24,299 nucleotides of DNA from a virus: the IMG/VR virus record IMGVR_UViG_3300017963_000731, positions 1-24,299 of that record, one strand, 5' to 3'. Both the position numbers and the translations under genes were made by a program. The notes beneath the pieces were generated by a model, which made no database searches, was not told where the DNA came from, and worked only from the letters and a program-made list of their open reading frames with translations. Each line of letters begins with the position of its first letter. Position 1 is the stretch's first letter. Of this stretch, positions 1,467 to 23,990 are shown in pieces.

Positions 1467-1997
1467 CTATCCGCATTTCTCCCAATTACAATCCAGACAA
1501 CCCACACAACCCCCTTCGTGCTTTAAATTGTGGCTCCCACATTCAGGACATCTCTTGCCTTCAAAACCGTTACCCAATTTTGTGTCCCCATCGGATACAG
1601 GTAACACTTCAGGTACACTTTTGTTCTCTGTAACTTTTTCTTCAATTTCTGGCAACTCAATATTCTTAATCTTCATATACTTGGCAATACATTTTGCAAT
1701 AGCATCAGGTAATGAACGCACCGATCCGTATGATTTCGTGATTGTCGGATTTGCTCCCACTATACCATCTAACTGTTTATGAATGTTCAAAATTGGAACA
1801 TTGTTTTTAAAAAGAAGCGAAATAAGCCTACCCAACGCTTCAGCTTTTGCGTGGGTTGACTGCCCCGATTTCCCAACCACAGCAAACAATTCACAGGGCT
1901 TTCCATCATCGGTTTCGTTAATCGTGCAATACAAATGACCGTATCCGGTATTTATTTTAATCGTATATCCTCTTAATACATCAGGTCTTTCTCCCAT
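1467..1997 (-). CDS. Stand-alone NrdJ C-terminal (TSCPD) domain protein with zinc ribbon
   Basis: The 176-residue product matches the C-terminal region of adenosylcobalamin-dependent class II ribonucleotide reductase as remembered. It opens with RPDVLRGYTIKINTG, then LYCTINE, GKPCELFAVVGKSGQSTHAKAEALGRLISL, a KQLDGI segment and SLPDAIAK (equivalent of the TSCPD motif). It ends with a four-Cys module CPECGSHNL...GGCVGCLDC. In full-length NrdJ this tail follows the catalytic barrel and carries a zinc site near the redox cysteines. No catalytic NrdJ part is present in the window, so it may partner a host or distant phage subunit, as in split NrdJa/NrdJb enzymes, or have another role. The start is directly after the upstream gene's stop, with GAGGG as ribosome site. 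Confidence 0.85.
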   Translation of the reverse strand: MGERPDVLRGYTIKINTGYGHLYCTINETDDGKPCELFAVVGKSGQSTHAKAEALGRLISLLFKNNVPILNIHKQLDGIVGANPTITKSYGSVRSLPDAIAKCIAKYMKIKNIELPEIEEKVTENKSVPEVLPVSDGDTKLGNGFEGKRCPECGSHNLKHEGGCVGCLDCNWEKCG

Positions 1998-4940: not shown

Positions 4941-4957
4941 ATGCAAAATCTATGCCA
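4941..4957 (-). promoter_or_regulatory. Sigma-54-like -24/-12 promoter (minus strand)
   Basis: The minus strand reads TGGCATAGATTTTGCAT, with GG and GC 12 bases apart, matching the consensus TGGCAYRNNNNTTGCW. The predicted start is near 4931, 34 bases before the ATG at 4897. It fills the 62-base gap after the large terminase and would give the downstream genes (4897 to 1116) their own switch. Confidence 0.65.
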
Positions 4958-6830: not shown

Positions 6831-7685
6831 TTATCCCTTTTTATCCTCACGTTCGTAATTTTTGCAATACTGGCATCCCTCTGGCTCAGCATCCATTGAC
6901 TCTAATTGCAAAGCTGTTATATGTTTTGGATTATCTATCATTAGATATTCTTCACATTCTAGTAAAAAACCAAACTCGGTATCAGACAATTTATCTACAT
7001 TAAACCTCAATGGATACTTCTCTACAATCCACAACCTGCTCGTATCAATAAATAACAGCGTTGTGTCATCAGGAGACATGTGATGAGTTGCATATATAGG
7101 TATATTATTATACGTTATGTGTCTGTCCCCATTAATGTTAATTACACCAATAACGATTCCTAGGTTGTGCAAGTGTGCAGTAAACCCTCTTCTGCTTCTA
7201 TGCGCCATCATAATCATATCTGGACTGCCAGTATTCAGATCCATCGCTTCGTCTACTTTTTTAATAAAATCAGCAGATCTTTTAGGTGTTTCCCCCTTTA
7301 CCATACTTGGTATTTCAACTGAATCTATTAAACCTTTATAGCCGCAATTTTTATCCCCATAAATATAGGATTCCATTTCGCAGTATTTAAAAGATTCAAT
7401 TTTGTTTTCTACTTCTTCATCTATTGAAGTTAAGAGATAATCCAACCTATCAGTTTCGTTTGTTATATTACTTAAATTCACATCGGGTTGTGGGGCAACC
7501 CCCATTGCAACTAATCTACGAATACGAGGTAGCAATGATAATCTTTCTTCTTTTGCGAGTTCATTAATATTTGCTCTTTGGATAGCACGTCTAATTGGGT
7601 TATTGCAATTTACCATCTCCTCTAATTTGTCGTGATATTTATTGATGTGCCTTAAAATATCGTTCTGTGTGTTAGTTAAATTCAT
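6831..7685 (-). CDS. Capsid-protein paralogue C (HK97-fold type)
   Basis: With the ATG at 7685 (ATGA overlap with the upstream gene) the product has 284 residues. It shares with the plus-strand capsid protein at 14232 the blocks NPIRRA, YIYGDKN, VDEAMDLNTGSPDMIMMAHRSRR, YNNIPIYAT, LWIVEKYPLRF, FLLECEEYLMIDNP. These are the P-domain and A-domain elements of that family. It lacks the longer N-terminal and loop parts of the 318-residue copy and adds a Cys-containing tail (GCQYCKNYE). Being adjacent to paralogue B and cotranscribed with the terminase, it may be a minor or penton capsid subunit. Homology is read directly from the shared motifs; the role is inferred. Confidence 0.7.
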   Translation of the reverse strand: MNLTNTQNDILRHINKYHDKLEEMVNCNNPIRRAIQRANINELAKEERLSLLPRIRRLVAMGVAPQPDVNLSNITNETDRLDYLLTSIDEEVENKIESFKYCEMESYIYGDKNCGYKGLIDSVEIPSMVKGETPKRSADFIKKVDEAMDLNTGSPDMIMMAHRSRRGFTAHLHNLGIVIGVININGDRHITYNNIPIYATHHMSPDDTTLLFIDTSRLWIVEKYPLRFNVDKLSDTEFGFLLECEEYLMIDNPKHITALQLESMDAEPEGCQYCKNYEREDKKG

Positions 7686-8434
7686 TTGCTTTCTCCTTCC
7701 ACTGTCAGCATAGACAGTTGTTCGGGGTTTATGATTCTTAAATATTCTTCGCATTGAATTGTGTAATCAAACTTGTTCATAGTCAATTCATGTATTACAA
7801 ACTCTGTCGGGTACTTCTCTATGACGTCAATATTGTCGGTGCTTAAATACAATATCGTGGGATCGTCCGGCTGGATATGGATAGTTACATATATGGGCAT
7901 ACCGTTATATGTGGTAAGGGTGAAGCCGTTGTAGAGTTCGGTAGACACATAGACGCCTCTTTTTGTGAGCAAATTATTTAAGCTCCTTCTTGATTTTCTG
8001 CTCATTATCATCATATTCGGGCATCCCCCGTTCAAGTCCATAGCGTGATCGATATCCGTTAATCCGTATTCCCAATCTTCATCAACTAATTTTATGTTAT
8101 TTTCAGGAACGCATTGCTTTATGCTTGGGAATCCTGAACCGTTAGCCCCTATGACAAAGGTTCTTTCTTCTATGTCTTTCATCGACACAATTTTATGATC
8201 AATATCGTCTTTTATTCGGTAATCAAACTTTAGTTTGTTATCAGGATTGTTAATTAAAGTCCCCCCTGTTTTAAGGATTTTCATTTCAAAATCTTCCGTT
8301 TCGCCTGATTTTTCAAAAGGTATTCTTTTGAACGCTTTGCGTATCGGGTTCTGGTAGTTCATGTATTCTTCCATGTGTTCAAAATATGGAGATACGGCTT
8401 TTAATATTTCGTTGTGCTTACGATTAAGTTTCAT
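7682..8434 (-). CDS. Capsid-protein paralogue B (HK97-fold type)
   Basis: The 250-residue product aligns by eye with the capsid protein at 14232 and with paralogue C. Shared blocks are YQNPIRKAF near the N-terminus, IEERTFVIGANG, AMDLNGGCPNMMIMSRKSRR, YNGMPIYVTIHIQPDD, VIEKYPTEF and FDYTIQCEEYLRIINPEQLSML. It is shorter than the plus-strand copy by about 70 residues, missing part of the extended loop region. A clear AAGGAG precedes the ATG. It follows three HTH genes and precedes paralogue C with an ATGA overlap. It could form pentons or decorate the capsid, or be the relic of another phage's capsid gene. Confidence 0.7.
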   Translation of the reverse strand: MKLNRKHNEILKAVSPYFEHMEEYMNYQNPIRKAFKRIPFEKSGETEDFEMKILKTGGTLINNPDNKLKFDYRIKDDIDHKIVSMKDIEERTFVIGANGSGFPSIKQCVPENNIKLVDEDWEYGLTDIDHAMDLNGGCPNMMIMSRKSRRSLNNLLTKRGVYVSTELYNGFTLTTYNGMPIYVTIHIQPDDPTILYLSTDNIDVIEKYPTEFVIHELTMNKFDYTIQCEEYLRIINPEQLSMLTVEGESK

Positions 8435-8450: not shown

Positions 8451-8786
8451 TTACAAATATGCTAAATAGCTGTTCCAATCGAACAACTCCTTGATTTCTT
8501 CCTTATTCATGTTTTCCAATTTATCCTTGATTGCCATTACAGCTTCCTGCACCCATGCAACATTATCGTCCCTTATGTCGATTTTAATAGGTACGCTACC
8601 AACATTTACAATTTCGGGGTCTATTCTTATAATCTTCCTGTCATCAAAGAAACGGTAGTGCGGTATCAACCCCTTGACCATCCAGTTGTGTATTGTTTGA
8701 GGATCAACACTGATATATTCCGCAAATTGGTTTATAGTCATAAGTTTCTTCGGATAATTCGGATATATCTTGCTTTTTACTGCCAT
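8451..8786 (-). CDS. Excisionase/MerR-type HTH DNA-binding protein
   Basis: The 111-residue product has MTINQFAEYISVDPQTIHNWMVKGLIPHYRFFDDRKIIRIDPE, the compact winged HTH of the excisionase (HTH_17) type: helix, turn, recognition helix, then the wing with a basic R-K-I-I-R-I strand. A helical C-terminus (AVMAIKDKLENMNKEEIKEL) may dimerise. It starts inside the end of the preceding HTH gene, just after a run of ten A in the mRNA, and has no clear ribosome site, so translation probably depends on its neighbour. It may regulate the operon or act in recombination. Confidence 0.8.
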   Translation of the reverse strand: MAVKSKIYPNYPKKLMTINQFAEYISVDPQTIHNWMVKGLIPHYRFFDDRKIIRIDPEIVNVGSVPIKIDIRDDNVAWVQEAVMAIKDKLENMNKEEIKELFDWNSYLAYL

Positions 8787-9328
8787 AAAGATTTTTTTTT
8801 TCGGTGCAGATCCTTATTTATATATGTTGCAGGTACAAAACTATCCTTTAACCATTTGTCAAGGTCATAATAAGAGTAACTCCCCGGAAACTTATAATAC
8901 GGTATAGATCTTGCACGAGTTCTCCTGTGTATACCAAGAGTTGCTTCATGTATGCCCAACATCCTTGTTACATAATTTGCACTCATTAAAATTTTGCCCT
9001 GATATTTTTTACCTTGAGGGATATTCTTTTTGTCTCTTGGATCGAGAGGCACAGTCCCCCCGAAATGCTTTGTTGTAGGCATCCTCAATCCTTTTTCTGC
9101 ACAATAATTTTTTACAGCCATGTAAACCTGAGACTTAGACAAATTGAATTTCTTGCCGATCTTCGAGCAGGAATTGTATCTTTTTTTATACATCAAATAC
9201 ATCTGTTCGTCCCGTTCTATGTTTGGAATGTTCTTCACTATCTTTTTGGGGATGCGATCTTCAGTCATTTTAGTGTAATAGTAGTATCGTTTTTTCTTGC
9301 GCTTTTTCTTTTTTTCTTTTTCTTCCAT
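8777..9328 (-). CDS. Two-HTH DNA-binding protein with basic N-terminus
   Basis: The 183-residue product opens with an extremely basic tract (KEKKKKRKKKR, then YYYY). A first HTH lies around residues 50-75 (SCSKIGKKFNLSKSQVYMAVKNYC), resembling resolvase-type HTH. A second, excisionase-like one lies around 112-160 (SANYVTRMLGIHEATLGIH...RSIPYYKFPGSYSYYDLDKWL). The end is again basic (HRKKKS). It is the middle of three adjacent HTH genes and probably a paralogue of both neighbours in its second domain. A DNA-binding regulator or nucleoid-type protein is likely; the target is unknown. Confidence 0.75.
   Translation of the reverse strand: MEEKEKKKKRKKKRYYYYTKMTEDRIPKKIVKNIPNIERDEQMYLMYKKRYNSCSKIGKKFNLSKSQVYMAVKNYCAEKGLRMPTTKHFGGTVPLDPRDKKNIPQGKKYQGKILMSANYVTRMLGIHEATLGIHRRTRARSIPYYKFPGSYSYYDLDKWLKDSFVPATYINKDLHRKKKSLWQ
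8792..8801 (-). other. A10 homopolymer at the junction of two HTH genes
   Basis: The mRNA has ten consecutive A in the codons for Arg-Lys-Lys-Lys of the upstream HTH protein, just before the overlapping start of the next HTH gene. One extra A, or a -1 shift, would join the two frames through Ile-Phe-Met into a single protein of about 290 residues. Whether slippage happens is unknown. Confidence 0.4.
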
Positions 9329-9332
9329 TAGC

Positions 9333-9584
9333 TTATAACTTTGGATTTTTTAACGGGTTATGCTGGTATTTAGGGGTAGGTTGATCGAGATCGTCTTTGG
9401 CAGGGGTGTAAAATTCCTGTAAAGAATCAGGGTCTATGCGTATTGCTCCTCTTTTCCCAATCCTAAAATGCGGTAAAGACCCATCACGTATGTATCTGCC
9501 TATCGTGGCTTCAGACAGCCCTGAATATTTTGCAAACTTCTTTATCGACAATAGTTGTTTCCCATTTTCCGGTTTATTCACCAT
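9333..9584 (-). CDS. Small excisionase-type HTH protein, first gene of minus operon
   Basis: The 83-residue product contains LLSIKKFAKYSGLSEATIGRYIRDGSLPHFRIGKRGAIRIDPDSLQEFY, a clear excisionase/HTH_17 domain with a basic wing. The rest is a short proline-rich tail. It is the first gene after the strong minus-strand promoter at 9639-9667 and has AAAAGGAG about 10 bases before the ATG. Small size and position next to a divergent promoter suggest a regulator of the two divergent operons; excision is possible, but no integrase or attachment site is visible. Confidence 0.85.
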   Translation of the reverse strand: MVNKPENGKQLLSIKKFAKYSGLSEATIGRYIRDGSLPHFRIGKRGAIRIDPDSLQEFYTPAKDDLDQPTPKYQHNPLKNPKL

Positions 9585-9612
9585 TTTTTATCATTCTCCT
9601 TTTACTGTAATT

Positions 9613-9629
9613 TGGCATAAAACTTGCAT
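9613..9629 (+). promoter_or_regulatory. Sigma-54-like -24/-12 promoter (plus strand)
   Basis: TGGCATAAAACTTGCAT keeps GG and GC 12 bases apart as required for sigma-54. Its predicted start (near 9639) falls on the -10 box of the minus-strand sigma-70 promoter, so the two would exclude each other. It points to the plus operon at 9749, about 110 bases downstream, which also has a closer sigma-70 promoter. Confidence 0.55.
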
Positions 9630-11918: not shown

Positions 11919-11935
11919 TGGCATAATACTTGCAT
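11919..11935 (+). promoter_or_regulatory. Sigma-54-like -24/-12 promoter (plus strand)
   Basis: TGGCATAATACTTGCAT matches the -24/-12 consensus with the correct 12-base GG-GC distance. The predicted start near 11945 is about 31 bases before the TTG start at 11976. It lies in the only real gap (93 bases) between 9749 and 18056. Confidence 0.7.
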
Positions 11936-13921: not shown

Positions 13922-14230
13922 ATGCCAGAAAAACTAAGCCTTAAAAATGCAGTATTCTACAAATCGAAAATTCAGGAACTCCTGCCAAACATGAATGTCA
14001 CTATTCACTCCCTTACAGAAGGGAAGGATGAGTTCGGTATCCAAATAGCAAAGCCCCAAAATTACTCCGGTATTAGATTTTTAAATTTAGACTCTCTTGA
14101 TGCATTCCTCTGGGGTATTAAGGAGAAAATAGAAAACGATAAATTGGAAATCCAGAAATACGCAAATACAATATGTGTGTGCGATAATACAAACAACTGT
14201 TCCAAATTTGAACAAGGAGAGTTGGGATAA
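13922..14230 (+). CDS. Small hypothetical protein upstream of the capsid gene
   Basis: The 102-residue product has an alpha/beta look (NMNVTIHSLTEGKDEFGIQIAK, LDSLDAFLWGIKEKIENDKLEIQKY) and a Cys-containing end (ICVCDNTNNCS). It sits one base before the capsid gene start and could be a small capsid accessory, but nothing in the sequence proves it. AAGGAG precedes the ATG. Confidence 0.65.
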   Translation: MPEKLSLKNAVFYKSKIQELLPNMNVTIHSLTEGKDEFGIQIAKPQNYSGIRFLNLDSLDAFLWGIKEKIENDKLEIQKYANTICVCDNTNNCSKFEQGELG

Positions 14231-14231
14231 C

Positions 14232-15188
14232 ATGACTTATACCGATATTTGGACAGAAGGATTGGCGACTATTCGCAAGGCTTTGACTTCAGCAAATTCA
14301 GGGAATGCTCTATTACAGCCTGTAGTTGATGCAGTTGTACCACTGATGTGTGATTACCAAAACCCTTTGAGACAAAATATCCCCAGAAAATTGGGTAGTG
14401 GTCAAGGCTGGACAATAAACCGGCGTACTCCGGGATCTACTCCTGCTGAATGGGAGACGGATGTAGATTTCGTAACAGAGGACACAGGCAGCTATGAACA
14501 ATTCCTATTTCCATATAGAACTCTTTTGACAAGAGGCAAGGTGACCCGGAAACTTCAACCGACAGGCGCGTCTTATATTGACGTACTTATGGAGGAGATA
14601 GAGGGAAAGATTATCGAATTCAAGAATTATGAGGATCAAACTTATATAACCGGAGTTTCTTCTGAAACTGATTTTGACGGTTTTCAAAACCTATCTTCTG
14701 AGGATCAGATGATAGCAGCAAATGGTTATTTGTCTTTGGATAAAATAGATGAGGCAATGAACAAGAATATTGGTAATCCGAACATGATGGTTATGGCTCG
14801 AAGAACAAGGCGAGAATTAAATGCTCTTTTACAAGAGTACCAGCAATTTATCGATGTAACCGAGGTCAAAGGTGGATTCCGTTTGATGAGCTACAATGGT
14901 GTTCCGATTTACGTCAGCACAAATGTTCCAACCACTCAACTATTTAATGGAGTAACCGAAGGCTCCAATACTGGAGGTTCTTCCAGTTCAATATATTTTA
15001 TTGACACAGAGCATCTTTGGGCTGGGGAATTAACACCAGTGAGGATGTTACCTATGGCAAAAACCACCCAGCAATATGACGAGTTCGAAATCTTCTGCGA
15101 TGAAGTTCTCGTTTTAAGGAATCCAATGTGTATATCGAAACTCATCGGGATATGGGAAAGACACTTAATAACTGAAGGGGCGATATGA
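14232..15188 (+). CDS. Major capsid protein, HK97 fold
   Basis: From the ATG at 14232 the product has 318 residues. Typical elements of HK97-fold phage capsids are visible. There is an N-terminal region with YQNPLRQNIPRK and an E-loop-like part (WTINRRTPGSTPAEWETDVDFVTEDTGSYEQFLFPYRTLLTRGKVTRKL), a spine helix (YIDVLMEEIEGKIIEFKNYEDQTYITG) and P/A-domain blocks IDEAMNKNIGNPNMMVMARRTRRELNALL, YNGVPIYVST and CDEVLVLRNP. It resembles the 'phage major capsid protein' type with gene length near 320 residues. It lies far from the portal and terminase and on the other strand. Two shorter paralogues exist at 6831 and 7682. Confidence 0.85.
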   Translation: MTYTDIWTEGLATIRKALTSANSGNALLQPVVDAVVPLMCDYQNPLRQNIPRKLGSGQGWTINRRTPGSTPAEWETDVDFVTEDTGSYEQFLFPYRTLLTRGKVTRKLQPTGASYIDVLMEEIEGKIIEFKNYEDQTYITGVSSETDFDGFQNLSSEDQMIAANGYLSLDKIDEAMNKNIGNPNMMVMARRTRRELNALLQEYQQFIDVTEVKGGFRLMSYNGVPIYVSTNVPTTQLFNGVTEGSNTGGSSSSIYFIDTEHLWAGELTPVRMLPMAKTTQQYDEFEIFCDEVLVLRNPMCISKLIGIWERHLITEGAI

Positions 15189-18433: not shown

Positions 18434-19408
18434 ATGAGCAATAAAGAAAAAAAAGATGATTTACTATCATTATATGGAAAAGAACCTAAAAATGTAATCA
18501 ATGCTTTTTTAAAGGTTAAGCCAAGAAATGGAGGGATAAAAAAAGTGAGTGAACATCCAAAAAGGGAACAATTGCCTTTAGCAAAACATAAGGGGAAATT
18601 GGTGTTGGGAGACAAGGAAATTGATTGTTATGTTTTAGATACCGAAGAAAGAGTCATAAGTTTAAGGGCAGCAGTTACATCTATAACCAAGGTAGAAGGT
18701 GGAGCCTTGGAGGATTATCTTGGGGTTAAAGCCTTAAAATCCTTTATTGACAAGGATTTAGTTCTGGAGGAAACTATAGAATTTAAGCAACCTAAGTTAG
18801 ATTGGATTACAAAAGGGATTAAAGCGGAAAACTTTTTAGATATATGCAGGGCTTATGTGAACGCTTATGTAAATGAAAAGCTAACAACATCAAGACAAAA
18901 AGAAATAGCTATTCAATGTAGTATTTTATTAAGTGCTTGTGCAAAAGTAGGTTTAATTGCTCTTATTGATGAAGCAACCGGATACCAATATGAAAGGAAT
19001 CAAGAAGCCCTCAGAATTAAACTTGCCGCATATATTTCAGAAGAGCTAAGAGACTGGGAAAAAACATTTCCAGACGAATTATGGGAAGAATTTGGGAGAT
19101 TAACAGGATGGAGTTCGACAAGACTGCACTCAAGACCAAAGTGGTGGGGGAAATTAGTTATGGAGGTTATTTATGATGCTCTCGATCCAGATGTTGCTCA
19201 ACATTTAAGGGAAAACAAACCGCCACCAAGACATAAAATGAATTATCACCAATGGATGACGTCAGATGTTGGATTAAAAGCATTGATACCTCATATAAAC
19301 CAAATAATAGGTATCGCCAAAACTTGCGAATCGTTAAGCGAATTTAGGGAGCAAGTTGGTTATCATTTTAAAAAAGAACCATTGCAATTAAGATTACCGA
19401 GCAAATAA
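18434..19408 (+). CDS. P63C-domain protein
   Basis: The 324-residue product carries, from about residue 180, a run typical of the P63C domain as remembered: ATGYQYERNQEALRIKLAAYISEELRDWEKTFPDELWEEFGRLTGW, RPKWWGKLVMEVIYDALDPDVAQHLRE and HKMNYHQWMTSDVGLKALIPHI. The N-terminal part has a beta-rich ERVISLRAAVTSI segment. P63C proteins occur in phages and mobile elements; their activity is not established. It starts directly after the truncated methyltransferase without a strong ribosome site, and its stop overlaps the next start (TAATG), so it is coupled to the methyltransferase-nuclease gene. Confidence 0.75.
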   Translation: MSNKEKKDDLLSLYGKEPKNVINAFLKVKPRNGGIKKVSEHPKREQLPLAKHKGKLVLGDKEIDCYVLDTEERVISLRAAVTSITKVEGGALEDYLGVKALKSFIDKDLVLEETIEFKQPKLDWITKGIKAENFLDICRAYVNAYVNEKLTTSRQKEIAIQCSILLSACAKVGLIALIDEATGYQYERNQEALRIKLAAYISEELRDWEKTFPDELWEEFGRLTGWSSTRLHSRPKWWGKLVMEVIYDALDPDVAQHLRENKPPPRHKMNYHQWMTSDVGLKALIPHINQIIGIAKTCESLSEFREQVGYHFKKEPLQLRLPSK

Positions 19409-20868
19409 TGGAAAACACTCTTTTTTATGGCGATAATTTAACAATATTAAGAGAACATATAGATGGTGGATCAATTGATTTGATTTATTTAGATCCGCCT
19501 TTTAATTCTAAGGCTACTTATAACATCTTATATAAAGAGCCAAACGGTTTGGCTTCGAGTGCTCAGGTTACAGCTTTTGAAGATTCATGGCATTGGACTG
19601 AAGAAACAGCAAATTCTTTTGAAGAAATAATTGACGATAAATTGGTATCAACAGATATTAAAGACATGATGTTAGCTTTTAGAAAATTTATTGGCTTAAA
19701 TGATATGATGGCATATCTCTCAATGATGTGTATTAGACTTATAGGGCTTCAAAGAGTATTAAAAAATACTGGGTCCATTTATCTCCATTGCGATCCCACC
19801 GCAAGTCACTATCTTAAAATTGTTATGGATACAATTTTTGGGAAAAGAAATTTTAGAAATGAAATTGCATGGTGTTATACTGGTGCTTCAAGTCCGGGAC
19901 AAAAACAGTTCCCAAGAAAACATGATATTATTTTTTGGTATTCAAATAATACTGATAAATGGATTTTCAATCACGATGATATTAGAATACCTTATAGCGA
20001 GTCAACATTAAATCGTATTAAAGCAGGTGAATTAGGGGGTAAATCTGCTGAATCTGTTTTTCATGGCAAAAGAACAAAGAGAACTATGCACAAACAAGGC
20101 AAAATACCTGAAGACTGGTGGTTAATTCCAGTATTGGGTTCTACCGCCAAGGAAAGGCTTGGATATCCAACCCAAAAACCAGAAAGACTTTTGGAAAGAA
20201 TAATTAAAGCGTCAACATCAGAGGGTGATATGGTATTAGACCCTTTTTGTGGATGTGGCACTACGATCATGGTTGCTCAAGGTTTAAGGAGAAAATGGAT
20301 TGGAATTGATATAACACACCTTGCAACCACTTTGATAAAAAAGCGTCTTTATGATATGTGGGGTTTGGAAGCTAAAAAAGATTATGACGTTGTTGGAGAA
20401 CCAACAGATTTAGCCAGTGCAAAGGAACTTGCATCACAGAACCGTTATCAGTTTGAGTGGTGGGGTCTTTCTTTAATTGGAGCACAGCCCTATAAAGGAA
20501 AAATAAAGGGATCAGACAAAGGAATAGATGGTGTAATATATTTCAAAAACGTTGGTGGGGAAATAAAAAAAGCAATGGTTCAGGTTAAGAGCGGTAATGT
20601 TGGCGTTGATAAAGTTAGGGATTTATGCCATGTTGTAAATAGAGAAAAAGCAGTCATGGGCTTTTTCATAACTTTACATCAACCTACAAAGGACATGATA
20701 AAAGAAGCATTGGGAGAAGGGTTTTATAAACATAAGGGGAGTAGCTTTCAAAAAATACAAATATTAACTATTGAATCATTATTGTCGGGAACAATGCCTA
20801 GTGCACCTTTTTATTATTCGGGATTAAGACAATCTGGTAAACATATCCCTGATCAATTAACTATTTAA
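19408..20868 (+). CDS. DNA methyltransferase fused to Mrr-like nuclease
   Basis: The 486-residue product begins as a beta-class amino-methyltransferase. It has DNLTILREHIDGGSIDLIYLDPPFNS (catalytic DPPF, residues 29-32), CIRLIGLQRVLKNTGSIYLHCDP, a target-recognition part, GYPTQKPERLLERIIKAST and the SAM motif DPFCGCGTT (278-286). After about residue 350 a second module follows, FEWWGLSLIGAQPYKGKIKGSDKGIDGVIYF (Asp374), then MVQVKSG (Gln392, Lys394) and VMGFFITL. This is the D...QxK pattern of Mrr/PD-(D/E)xK restriction nucleases. One chain could thus both modify and cut. Whether the nuclease is active and under what signal is not visible. Confidence 0.8.
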   Translation: MENTLFYGDNLTILREHIDGGSIDLIYLDPPFNSKATYNILYKEPNGLASSAQVTAFEDSWHWTEETANSFEEIIDDKLVSTDIKDMMLAFRKFIGLNDMMAYLSMMCIRLIGLQRVLKNTGSIYLHCDPTASHYLKIVMDTIFGKRNFRNEIAWCYTGASSPGQKQFPRKHDIIFWYSNNTDKWIFNHDDIRIPYSESTLNRIKAGELGGKSAESVFHGKRTKRTMHKQGKIPEDWWLIPVLGSTAKERLGYPTQKPERLLERIIKASTSEGDMVLDPFCGCGTTIMVAQGLRRKWIGIDITHLATTLIKKRLYDMWGLEAKKDYDVVGEPTDLASAKELASQNRYQFEWWGLSLIGAQPYKGKIKGSDKGIDGVIYFKNVGGEIKKAMVQVKSGNVGVDKVRDLCHVVNREKAVMGFFITLHQPTKDMIKEALGEGFYKHKGSSFQKIQILTIESLLSGTMPSAPFYYSGLRQSGKHIPDQLTI

Positions 20869-20953: not shown

Positions 20954-21048
20954 CGCAAAGTACTAAGATACACATGCGGAGGCACAAATGCACTTAGCAT
21001 TAGGAGTGTTCAACATTTGAACAGGGTAGGGGGACTGTTGCTATTTGA

Positions 21049-21300
21049 TACACTTTTTATCATGTAAGTTCTATTTTACACTTTTGATTATTCTATTTTA
21101 CATGTAAGAATAATTATACACTTGTAAGGTAAATTCTACACTTTGTAAGTAATTACTTACAAGAACGCTTTTTCTGCTCCCATTTGATACACTTTTTATG
21201 GTGGCTTATAAACCATTGATTTTATTATACTTTTTAGGTGTCGAATTTTGTGTCTATTCGTTACACTTTTGAATCGGTTACACTTTTAAGAATACACTTT
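21049..21300 (+). repeat. Eight direct TACACTT iterons
   Basis: Copies start at 21049, 21077, 21117, 21137, 21188, 21262, 21279 and 21293, all on the plus strand; most extend to TACACTTTT. The copies at 21049 and 21188 lie within an 18-base exact repeat ATTTGATACACTTTTTAT, and two share the left flank TTCTATTTTACA. Spacing is irregular (14 to 74 bases). Such clusters bind a replication initiator or an activator. Confidence 0.7.
21143..21162. repeat. Perfect 20-base palindrome
   Basis: TTGTAAGTAATTACTTACAA is identical to its own reverse complement and lies among the iterons. TTACATGTAA at 21098 is a second, shorter palindrome sharing the TTAC/GTAA ends. A dimeric protein binding site is likely. 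Confidence 0.6.
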
Positions 21301-21357
21301 CATATCGTAAATCCTTTAATTATACCACCTTACAGGCTTTTATGAAAGTATTTTTTT

Positions 21358-21374
21358 TGGCACAGCACTTGCAT
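21358..21374 (+). promoter_or_regulatory. Sigma-54-like -24/-12 promoter (plus strand)
   Basis: TGGCACAGCACTTGCAT is the closest of the set to the sigma-54 consensus, with GG and GC 12 bases apart. The predicted start near 21384 is about 30 bases before the ATG at 21414. The TACACTT repeats end 58 bases upstream, a range in which activators of sigma-54 commonly bind. Confidence 0.75.
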
Positions 21375-21413
21375 ATTATAGTAGTATGATTAACAATTAC
21401 AGGAGAGAAACCA

Positions 21414-21596
21414 ATGGAATTTGATCAAAAAATTATTGAGGTATCAGATTGCATAAAGTGTATAAAAGATACTCATATATGCAACGAAACCACTACTTAC
21501 AAAGAATTAAAAAAACAAATTAAGGATCATTGCAATATATGTACAGAGCAAAAGCTATGTTTGTCAATACTCAATTCAATTGACAAGCTGGCATAA
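21414..21596 (+). CDS. Tiny Cys-rich protein
   Basis: The 60-residue product has CIKCIKDTHIC, HCNICTEQKLC: six Cys and two His arranged as two clusters, probably one or two metal sites. ATTACAGGAGAG precedes the ATG. First gene of a module of tiny genes after the -24/-12 element. Confidence 0.65.
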   Translation: MEFDQKIIEVSDCIKCIKDTHICNETTTYKELKKQIKDHCNICTEQKLCLSILNSIDKLA

Positions 21597-23668: not shown

Positions 23669-23845
23669 TATGCAATTTATTTCAGGGAACAAAAGGCGAA
23701 AGTCGGGTAATTGGTTGATTTTAAAGGGATATTTGGTATGCAGAGTTTTGCATAGTGTATGCAATTTTTTGCGTAGTGGAATTATTGTTTATTTTCAATG
23801 GTTTGGGTTGATTTTTGGATTTTTAGGTATGCAATTTTTTGCATA
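23669..23845. promoter_or_regulatory. Array of TATGCA-N6-TGCATA operators
   Basis: Sites lie at 23737-23754 (spacer GAGTTT), 23758-23775 (spacer ATTTTT, right arm TGCGTA) and 23828-23845 (spacer ATTTTT). A half site TATGCAATTTAT lies at 23669-23680, next to the -35 box of the minus promoter. The first two full sites are centred 21 bases apart, two helical turns. The array sits between the minus HTH gene and the plus -24/-12 element. The remainder of the 23628-24046 gap holds no gene that I can support. Confidence 0.7.
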
Positions 23846-23973: not shown

Positions 23974-23990
23974 TGGTACAGGGATTGCAT
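23974..23990 (+). promoter_or_regulatory. Sigma-54-like -24/-12 promoter (plus strand)
   Basis: TGGTACAGGGATTGCAT keeps the GG-GC distance of 12 and shares the TTGCATATTATA end with the element at 21358. The predicted start near 24000 is 47 bases before the ATG at 24047. The nearest TATGCA operator is centred about 164 bases upstream of that start. Confidence 0.65.

Follow-up and report, generated by a model that had tools for sequence, protein, structure and literature searches.

Promoters of the sigma-54 type are silent until a dedicated activator spends ATP, and a phage that uses them therefore ties its genes to a specific signal. TGT-N10-12-ACA is the enhancer code of many sigma-54 activators, the sites lie mostly 100-250 bp upstream of the promoter and are often multiple, and activators unlinked to their sites are known (PMC6615313). 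The closest described upstream activating sequences (UAS), those of PrdR, AdhR, CrbR and others in Clostridiales (PMC6615313) and of NifA and FhlA in Proteobacteria, have in common with the array described here the dyad code, the multiple sites, the 100-250 bp range (which holds most of our array), a sigma-54 promoter downstream and a gene soon after. What sets the present array apart is its location in a phage, its larger number of sites (at least five in tandem plus about three) and the lack of an activator gene seen adjacent to it. In the open-access literature that we searched, we found no phage genome described as having both a sigma-54 promoter set and an enhancer array of host type. The case links the sensing of host metabolism to the transcription of a phage in a concrete way that can be tested, and its dyad code gives a lead on the kind of activator, and possibly the kind of host, of an orphan metagenomic phage.

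The window, that is the whole stretch of DNA analysed, is 24,299 bp long and comes from IMG/VR as an incomplete virus record. A second contig of 37,406 bp shares 22,079 bp with it, differing there at a single position (9395), and adds 15.3 kb rightward, and the two were analysed jointly as 39,626 bp (39.6 kb). Terminase subunits, HK97-type major head proteins, an RNA ligase, a sliding clamp and a RuvB-like protein identify a tailed phage. The second contig, 99.995% identical, is the sole relative with the array; apart from it, the collections searched held no close relatives, and searches with the P63C protein, the 60-aa ORF, the terminase and the clamp returned this contig and distant P63C/methyltransferase cassettes that lack the repeats. 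The array occupies a large, A+T-rich intergenic gap of 545 bp between a methyltransferase gene and a 60-codon ORF (Table 1). The methyltransferase is of the N6/N4 DNA type, is fused to an Mrr-type nuclease domain and is encoded beside a P63C-domain protein; this pair, or its parts, recurs in unrelated phages.

An earlier note on this DNA had described eight same-strand copies of TACACTT, and they are indeed far above chance. The eight copies span 251 bp (21049-21299), against 0-3 copies in each of 2000 dinucleotide-shuffled versions of the intergenic sequence, and 7-mers of at least three different letters never exceeded five copies in the shuffled gap. The 18-base exact repeat containing TACACTT and the 20-base perfect palindrome among the copies were found as claimed, and the promoter placed shortly downstream of the last copy begins after 57 intervening bases. 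The repeat unit, however, is likely a different one: the TACACTT copies are real, but TACACTT pairs with TGTAAG at fixed spacing into 18-bp dyads, which the first reading had missed. The functional unit is most likely a TGT-N11/12-ACA dyad in which TACACTT makes up the right half-site and the CTT outside it.

The counts of spaced half-sites agree with such a unit. TGT-Nn-ACA occurs in the gap four times at n = 12 and three times at n = 11, seven sites that form a sharp peak over the four others scattered across all remaining n from 0 to 30. The gap contains TGTA-N10-TACA four times, the remainder of the 39.6 kb has it once, and none of 2000 gap shuffles has more than one copy, while the longer TGTAAG-N8-TACA is confined to the gap, with no other occurrence in 39.6 kb. 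Together, the 7-mer shuffle counts and the dyad-spacing counts exclude a chance origin of the repeats. We rejected an everted dyad (TACA-N0-3-TGTA) as the unit because its spacer varies (0, 2 or 3) while TGT-N12-ACA is constant. The five tandem dyads are spaced 22, 18, 20 and 21 bp from start to start, or about two helical turns, with gaps of 0-4 bp between them, and all five are in helical register. The degenerate dyad 2 is in phase with the dyads on either side (22 and 18 bp), and the best copy is the 20-bp palindrome. The TACACTT at 21188 has a degenerate partner half, and the unpaired copies are probably weaker half-sites.

Table 1. Features of the array region and of the surrounding phage genome (window coordinates unless another contig is named).
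Feature	Position	Strand	Sequence	Remark
Possible extra dyad, TGT-N11-ACA	21007-21023		TGTTCAACATTTGAACA	
Probable extra UAS dyad, TGT-N11-ACA	21036-21052		TGTTGCTATTTGATACA	
18-base exact repeat	21043-21060; 21182-21199		ATTTGATACACTTTTTAT	contains TACACTT
TACACTT copies	21049, 21077, 21117, 21137, 21188, 21262, 21279, 21293	+		
Putative UAS dyad 1	21063-21080		TGTAAGTTCTATTTTACA	TGT-N12-ACA
Putative UAS dyad 2	21085-21102		TGATTATTCTATTTTACA	degenerate; one mismatch in left TGT; third-best PWM score class
Putative UAS dyad 3	21103-21120		TGTAAGAATAATTATACA	exact TGT-N12-ACA
Putative UAS dyad 4	21123-21140		TGTAAGGTAAATTCTACA	exact TGT-N12-ACA
20-base perfect palindrome	21143-21162		TTGTAAGTAATTACTTACAA	
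Putative UAS dyad 5	21144-21161		TGTAAGTAATTACTTACA	perfect palindrome, inside the 20-base palindrome
Half-site copy	21174-21194		CTGCTCCCATTTGATACACTT	near-duplicate of 21035-21055; left half degenerate
IHF consensus WATCAANNNNTTR, perfect match	21209-21221	-	AATCAATGGTTTA	between array and promoter
Probable promoter-proximal UAS dyad, TGT-N11-ACA	21249-21265		TGTGTCTATTCGTTACA	93 bp between its end and the -24 element
Two unpaired TACACTT half-sites	21279-21299	+		copies 21279 and 21293, without partner half
Sigma-54 promoter	21357-21374	+	TTGGCACAGCACTTGCAT	-24 GG at 21359-21360, -12 GC at 21371-21372
Predicted transcription start	near 21384			
First gene of downstream operon	21414-21596	+		60-aa Cys-rich protein; ribosome site CAGGAGAG upstream
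Sigma-54-like promoter	4942-4957	-		between large terminase and next gene
Sigma-54-like promoter	9613-9628	+		at cumulative GC skew minimum (9605)
Sigma-54-like promoter	11919-11934	+		
Sigma-54-like promoter	23974-23989	+		
Sigma-54-like promoter	26109 (joint 39.6 kb); L055:5889-5904	+		
TATGCA-N6-TGCATA dyads	23737-23754; 23758-23775; 23828-23845			18 bp each
Methyltransferase gene	19408-20868	+		
HTH_17-type proteins	8451-8786; 9333-9584	-		excisionase-like
HTH_28 protein, weak match	8777-9328	-		
Capsid-like proteins 1, 2, 3	6831-7754; 7682-8434; 14175-15188	-; -; +		
TSCPD-domain protein	1467-1997	-		
Imm5-like protein	L055:12888-13724	-		

Scans for similar repeats in other genomes gave little. 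Matches to an exact 17-mer and to triple TACACTT were mostly coding repeats or chance, and none of the loci with at least four TACACTT copies has a nearby sigma-54-like site. A palindrome search of viral contigs found an exact copy of the 20-bp palindrome within a long inverted repeat at the end of a G+C-rich contig (L008, 12599-12657); we rejected this contig as a relative, since it is unrelated and the repeat is probably an assembly fold-back. The perfect IHF match between array and promoter belongs to a class of sites present at chance level in the window (5 found, 4.1 expected).

Downstream of the array, the promoter proposed in the earlier note is well supported and turns out to be one of a set that the note had missed. 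We defined a -24/-12 element by GG and GC 10 bases apart and the consensus TTGGCAY-N5-TTGCW; TTGGCACAGCACTTGCAT meets this definition, and TGGCACAGCACTTGCA is an exact match to the consensus. The 60-aa gene, which has a good ribosome site, starts 40 bp downstream of this promoter. In the 39.6 kb, the strict form TGGCA[CT]-N5-TTGC[AT] occurs five times (0.08 expected) and the relaxed form TGG[CT]A[CT]-N5-TTGCA six times (0.10 expected), with 0 or 1 occurrence at any other spacer length. The strict element is found about 0.2 times per 39.6 kb in ~1.4 Mb of other viral loci, a comparison set from which the near-identical contig was excluded, as were two soil contigs rich in such sites (L087 and L110). 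An ORF begins 57-73 bases after the start of the element in five of the six cases, with a short leader and a purine-rich ribosome site. The TGTAAG dyad array is absent at the other sigma-54-like promoters of the phage, and sigma-70 promoters in the array region are at chance level.

The two soil phage contigs likewise carry five or six TGG[CT]A[CT]-N5-TTGC[AT] sites, in 11-14 kb, but they are unrelated genomes with a G+C content of 43-44% and no TGTAAG dyad array was seen in them. Their sigma-54-like sites include L087 7182-7278 and 10659 and L110 9085-9181 and 12562, several of which share TGGCACGATTCTTGC, and the use of sigma-54 by phages may be wider. TACACTT triplets in these two contigs look coincidental, and the idea, taken from L087, that TACACTT is part of degenerate -24/-12 elements does not hold in the window.

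The dyad unit had been chosen after inspection of the sequence, and a scan of ~85,000 bacterial genomes then provided an independent test. The query consisted of two TGTAAG-N8-TACA dyads separated by 1-6 bases and included no promoter. Among the 51 loci found, three have a sigma-54 promoter 131-141 bp downstream of the tandem dyads, against 0.1 expected: L190 in a Lachnospiraceae MAG, with a gene for a sodium:solute symporter-like protein; L226 in an Eubacteriales MAG, with an NhaC-like transporter gene (both named from sequence); and L230 in a Clostridiales MAG, where the activator gene accompanies a urease-like cluster. In all three, the dyads adjoin a gene for a sigma-54 activator (bEBP; PF00158 E<=1e-67, Fis-type HTH domain HTH_8 E<=1e-8) whose nearest NCBIfam model is PrdR, at a score below its cut-off. 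A third TGT-N12-ACA dyad lies nearer the promoter in L190 and L230, and a half-site in L190 reads CTTACACTT, with TACACTT as its outer part. In the L230 genome, a second dyad lies between another bEBP gene and a sigma-54-like promoter, TGGTATAATTGTTGC, 67 bp away. A search for the strict tandem palindrome in 391 genomes of the same class as L230 recovered, besides the locus already known, a single further one that has neither promoter nor activator. The three loci share tandem TGTAAG-N8-TACA dyads and the downstream sigma-54 promoter with the phage; they differ in their bacterial genes, in the adjacent PrdR-like activator gene and in dyads that abut with 1-bp gaps, and are convergent parallels rather than homologues of the phage segment. 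Since the same code stands at sigma-54 promoters beside activator genes, the dyads of the phage follow a code that in bacteria serves as an enhancer for activators. PrdR-like activators whose TGTAAG/CTTACA enhancers lie next to transporter genes or urease-like ones are seen at these loci and at one more (L316), and they form a candidate group of uncharacterised activators with a binding site that could be deduced.

Based on these data, we propose, with a probability of about 0.8, that the array is an enhancer for the sigma-54 promoter at 21357. The earlier note had read the copies either as iterons of an origin or as enhancer sites serving this promoter's activator; the second reading is well supported by the dyads and the Clostridia loci and the first is left without support. 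Seven of the dyads have their ends 93-335 bp upstream of this promoter (197-278 bp for the core array), within or near the range of ~70-250 bp expected of such enhancer sites, and the five tandem ones are in register. Against this reading, the array is longer than the usual two or three sites, the other sigma-54-like promoters of the phage lack it, two or three TACACTT copies have no partner half, and a repressor could in principle read the TGT-ACA code. No gene for a bEBP, a Fis-type HTH protein or sigma-54, and hence no linked activator gene, is found in the 39.6 kb of this incomplete genome. Activator dimers would most likely fill the tandem dyads, assemble into an AAA+ ring and loop to the holoenzyme at 21357, and the looped activator would drive the operon of small genes downstream. 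This activator is most likely a host protein resembling the TGT-ACA class of Clostridia, or may be encoded by the phage outside the 39.6 kb. The enhancer code, the sole pointer to a host, suggests a Clostridia-like one.

Other explanations of the array have to be weighed against this one. Direct repeats at 18-22 bp spacing in a large, A+T-rich intergenic gap resemble the iterons of plasmids and P1-like phages, so that a phage initiator might bind ~20-bp iterons beside an A+T-rich unwinding element; the sliding clamp and the RuvB-like AAA+ protein are encoded 6-9 kb downstream, and a repeat at 21114, TTATACACT, is one base from a DnaA box. We consider such a replication origin improbable. The cumulative GC skew is lowest at 9605 and highest at 31780, and the check for a skew change proposed in the earlier note shows no inflection at the array. 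DnaA-box-like sites are no more frequent than chance predicts (37, with 36 expected) and form no cluster, and the Rep3 initiator is absent from both contigs. Pfam and PHROGs scans, run on selected proteins and covering initiator families other than Rep3, recognised no initiator, primase or helicase. The neighbours of the array are the methyltransferase and small proteins, not an initiator gene, and the units are inverted dyads like those at Clostridia sigma-54 promoters beside activator genes. Because these loci pair the dyads with both promoter and activator gene, the array is very probably an enhancer and not a replication origin.

The dyads could also be operators, in a stoperator-like or silencer array, for a phage repressor or another regulator that uses TGTAAG/CTTACA. 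The 20-bp perfect palindrome and tandem dyads are typical of repressors too, and the phage encodes HTH_17-type proteins. No dyad overlaps the promoter, however, and even the nearest ends at an activator's position rather than that of a simple repressor; independent Clostridia loci, moreover, tie the dyad code to activator genes, and we regard operators as unlikely. Lastly, the dyads and promoter may be real while the block is recently captured host DNA without a role in the phage. The same arrangement does exist in bacterial genomes, but six sigma-54-like promoters are spread over the phage, one of them by the large terminase, and the array leads into a phage-type operon of small genes and not a host gene, which makes capture very improbable. 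As an enhancer-type switch in a phage, of the sort with which Clostridia-type bacteria switch on metabolic genes, the array suggests that phage expression depends on the host sigma-54 system and an activator of this type. More tentatively, a lytic-type phage may have brought a regulon of its own, with five or six promoters, under sigma-54 control, and a full enhancer array of host type may connect one or more of its operons to a host metabolic activator of the PrdR/TGT-ACA class; phage expression might then read the nutrient or redox state of the host.

Several other features of this genome deserve mention. A second dyad array, TATGCA-N6-TGCATA, with 21-bp spacing between its first two members, lies 128-237 bp upstream of the promoter at 23974 and is possibly the enhancer of a different activator. 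Its word count is not beyond that of shuffles, and in Clostridia-class genomes TATGCA dyads were found without sigma-54 promoters or activator genes. One such genome has TATGCA-N6-TGCATA-TATGCA sites five times (L320-L326), which resemble an ArgR-type operator more than an enhancer of the sigma-54 kind. The genes of the three helix-turn-helix proteins are consecutive and lie next to the divergent promoter region at 9.6 kb. The phage also encodes three related capsid-like proteins, of which proteins 2 and 3 match phrog_212 and protein 1 was assigned by sequence resemblance, and a protein with a TSCPD domain, which is otherwise known from ribonucleotide reductases. An AGCAGCA-type tandem repeat in the gene of the Imm5-like protein gives rise to a long Ala/Asp/Tyr repeat.
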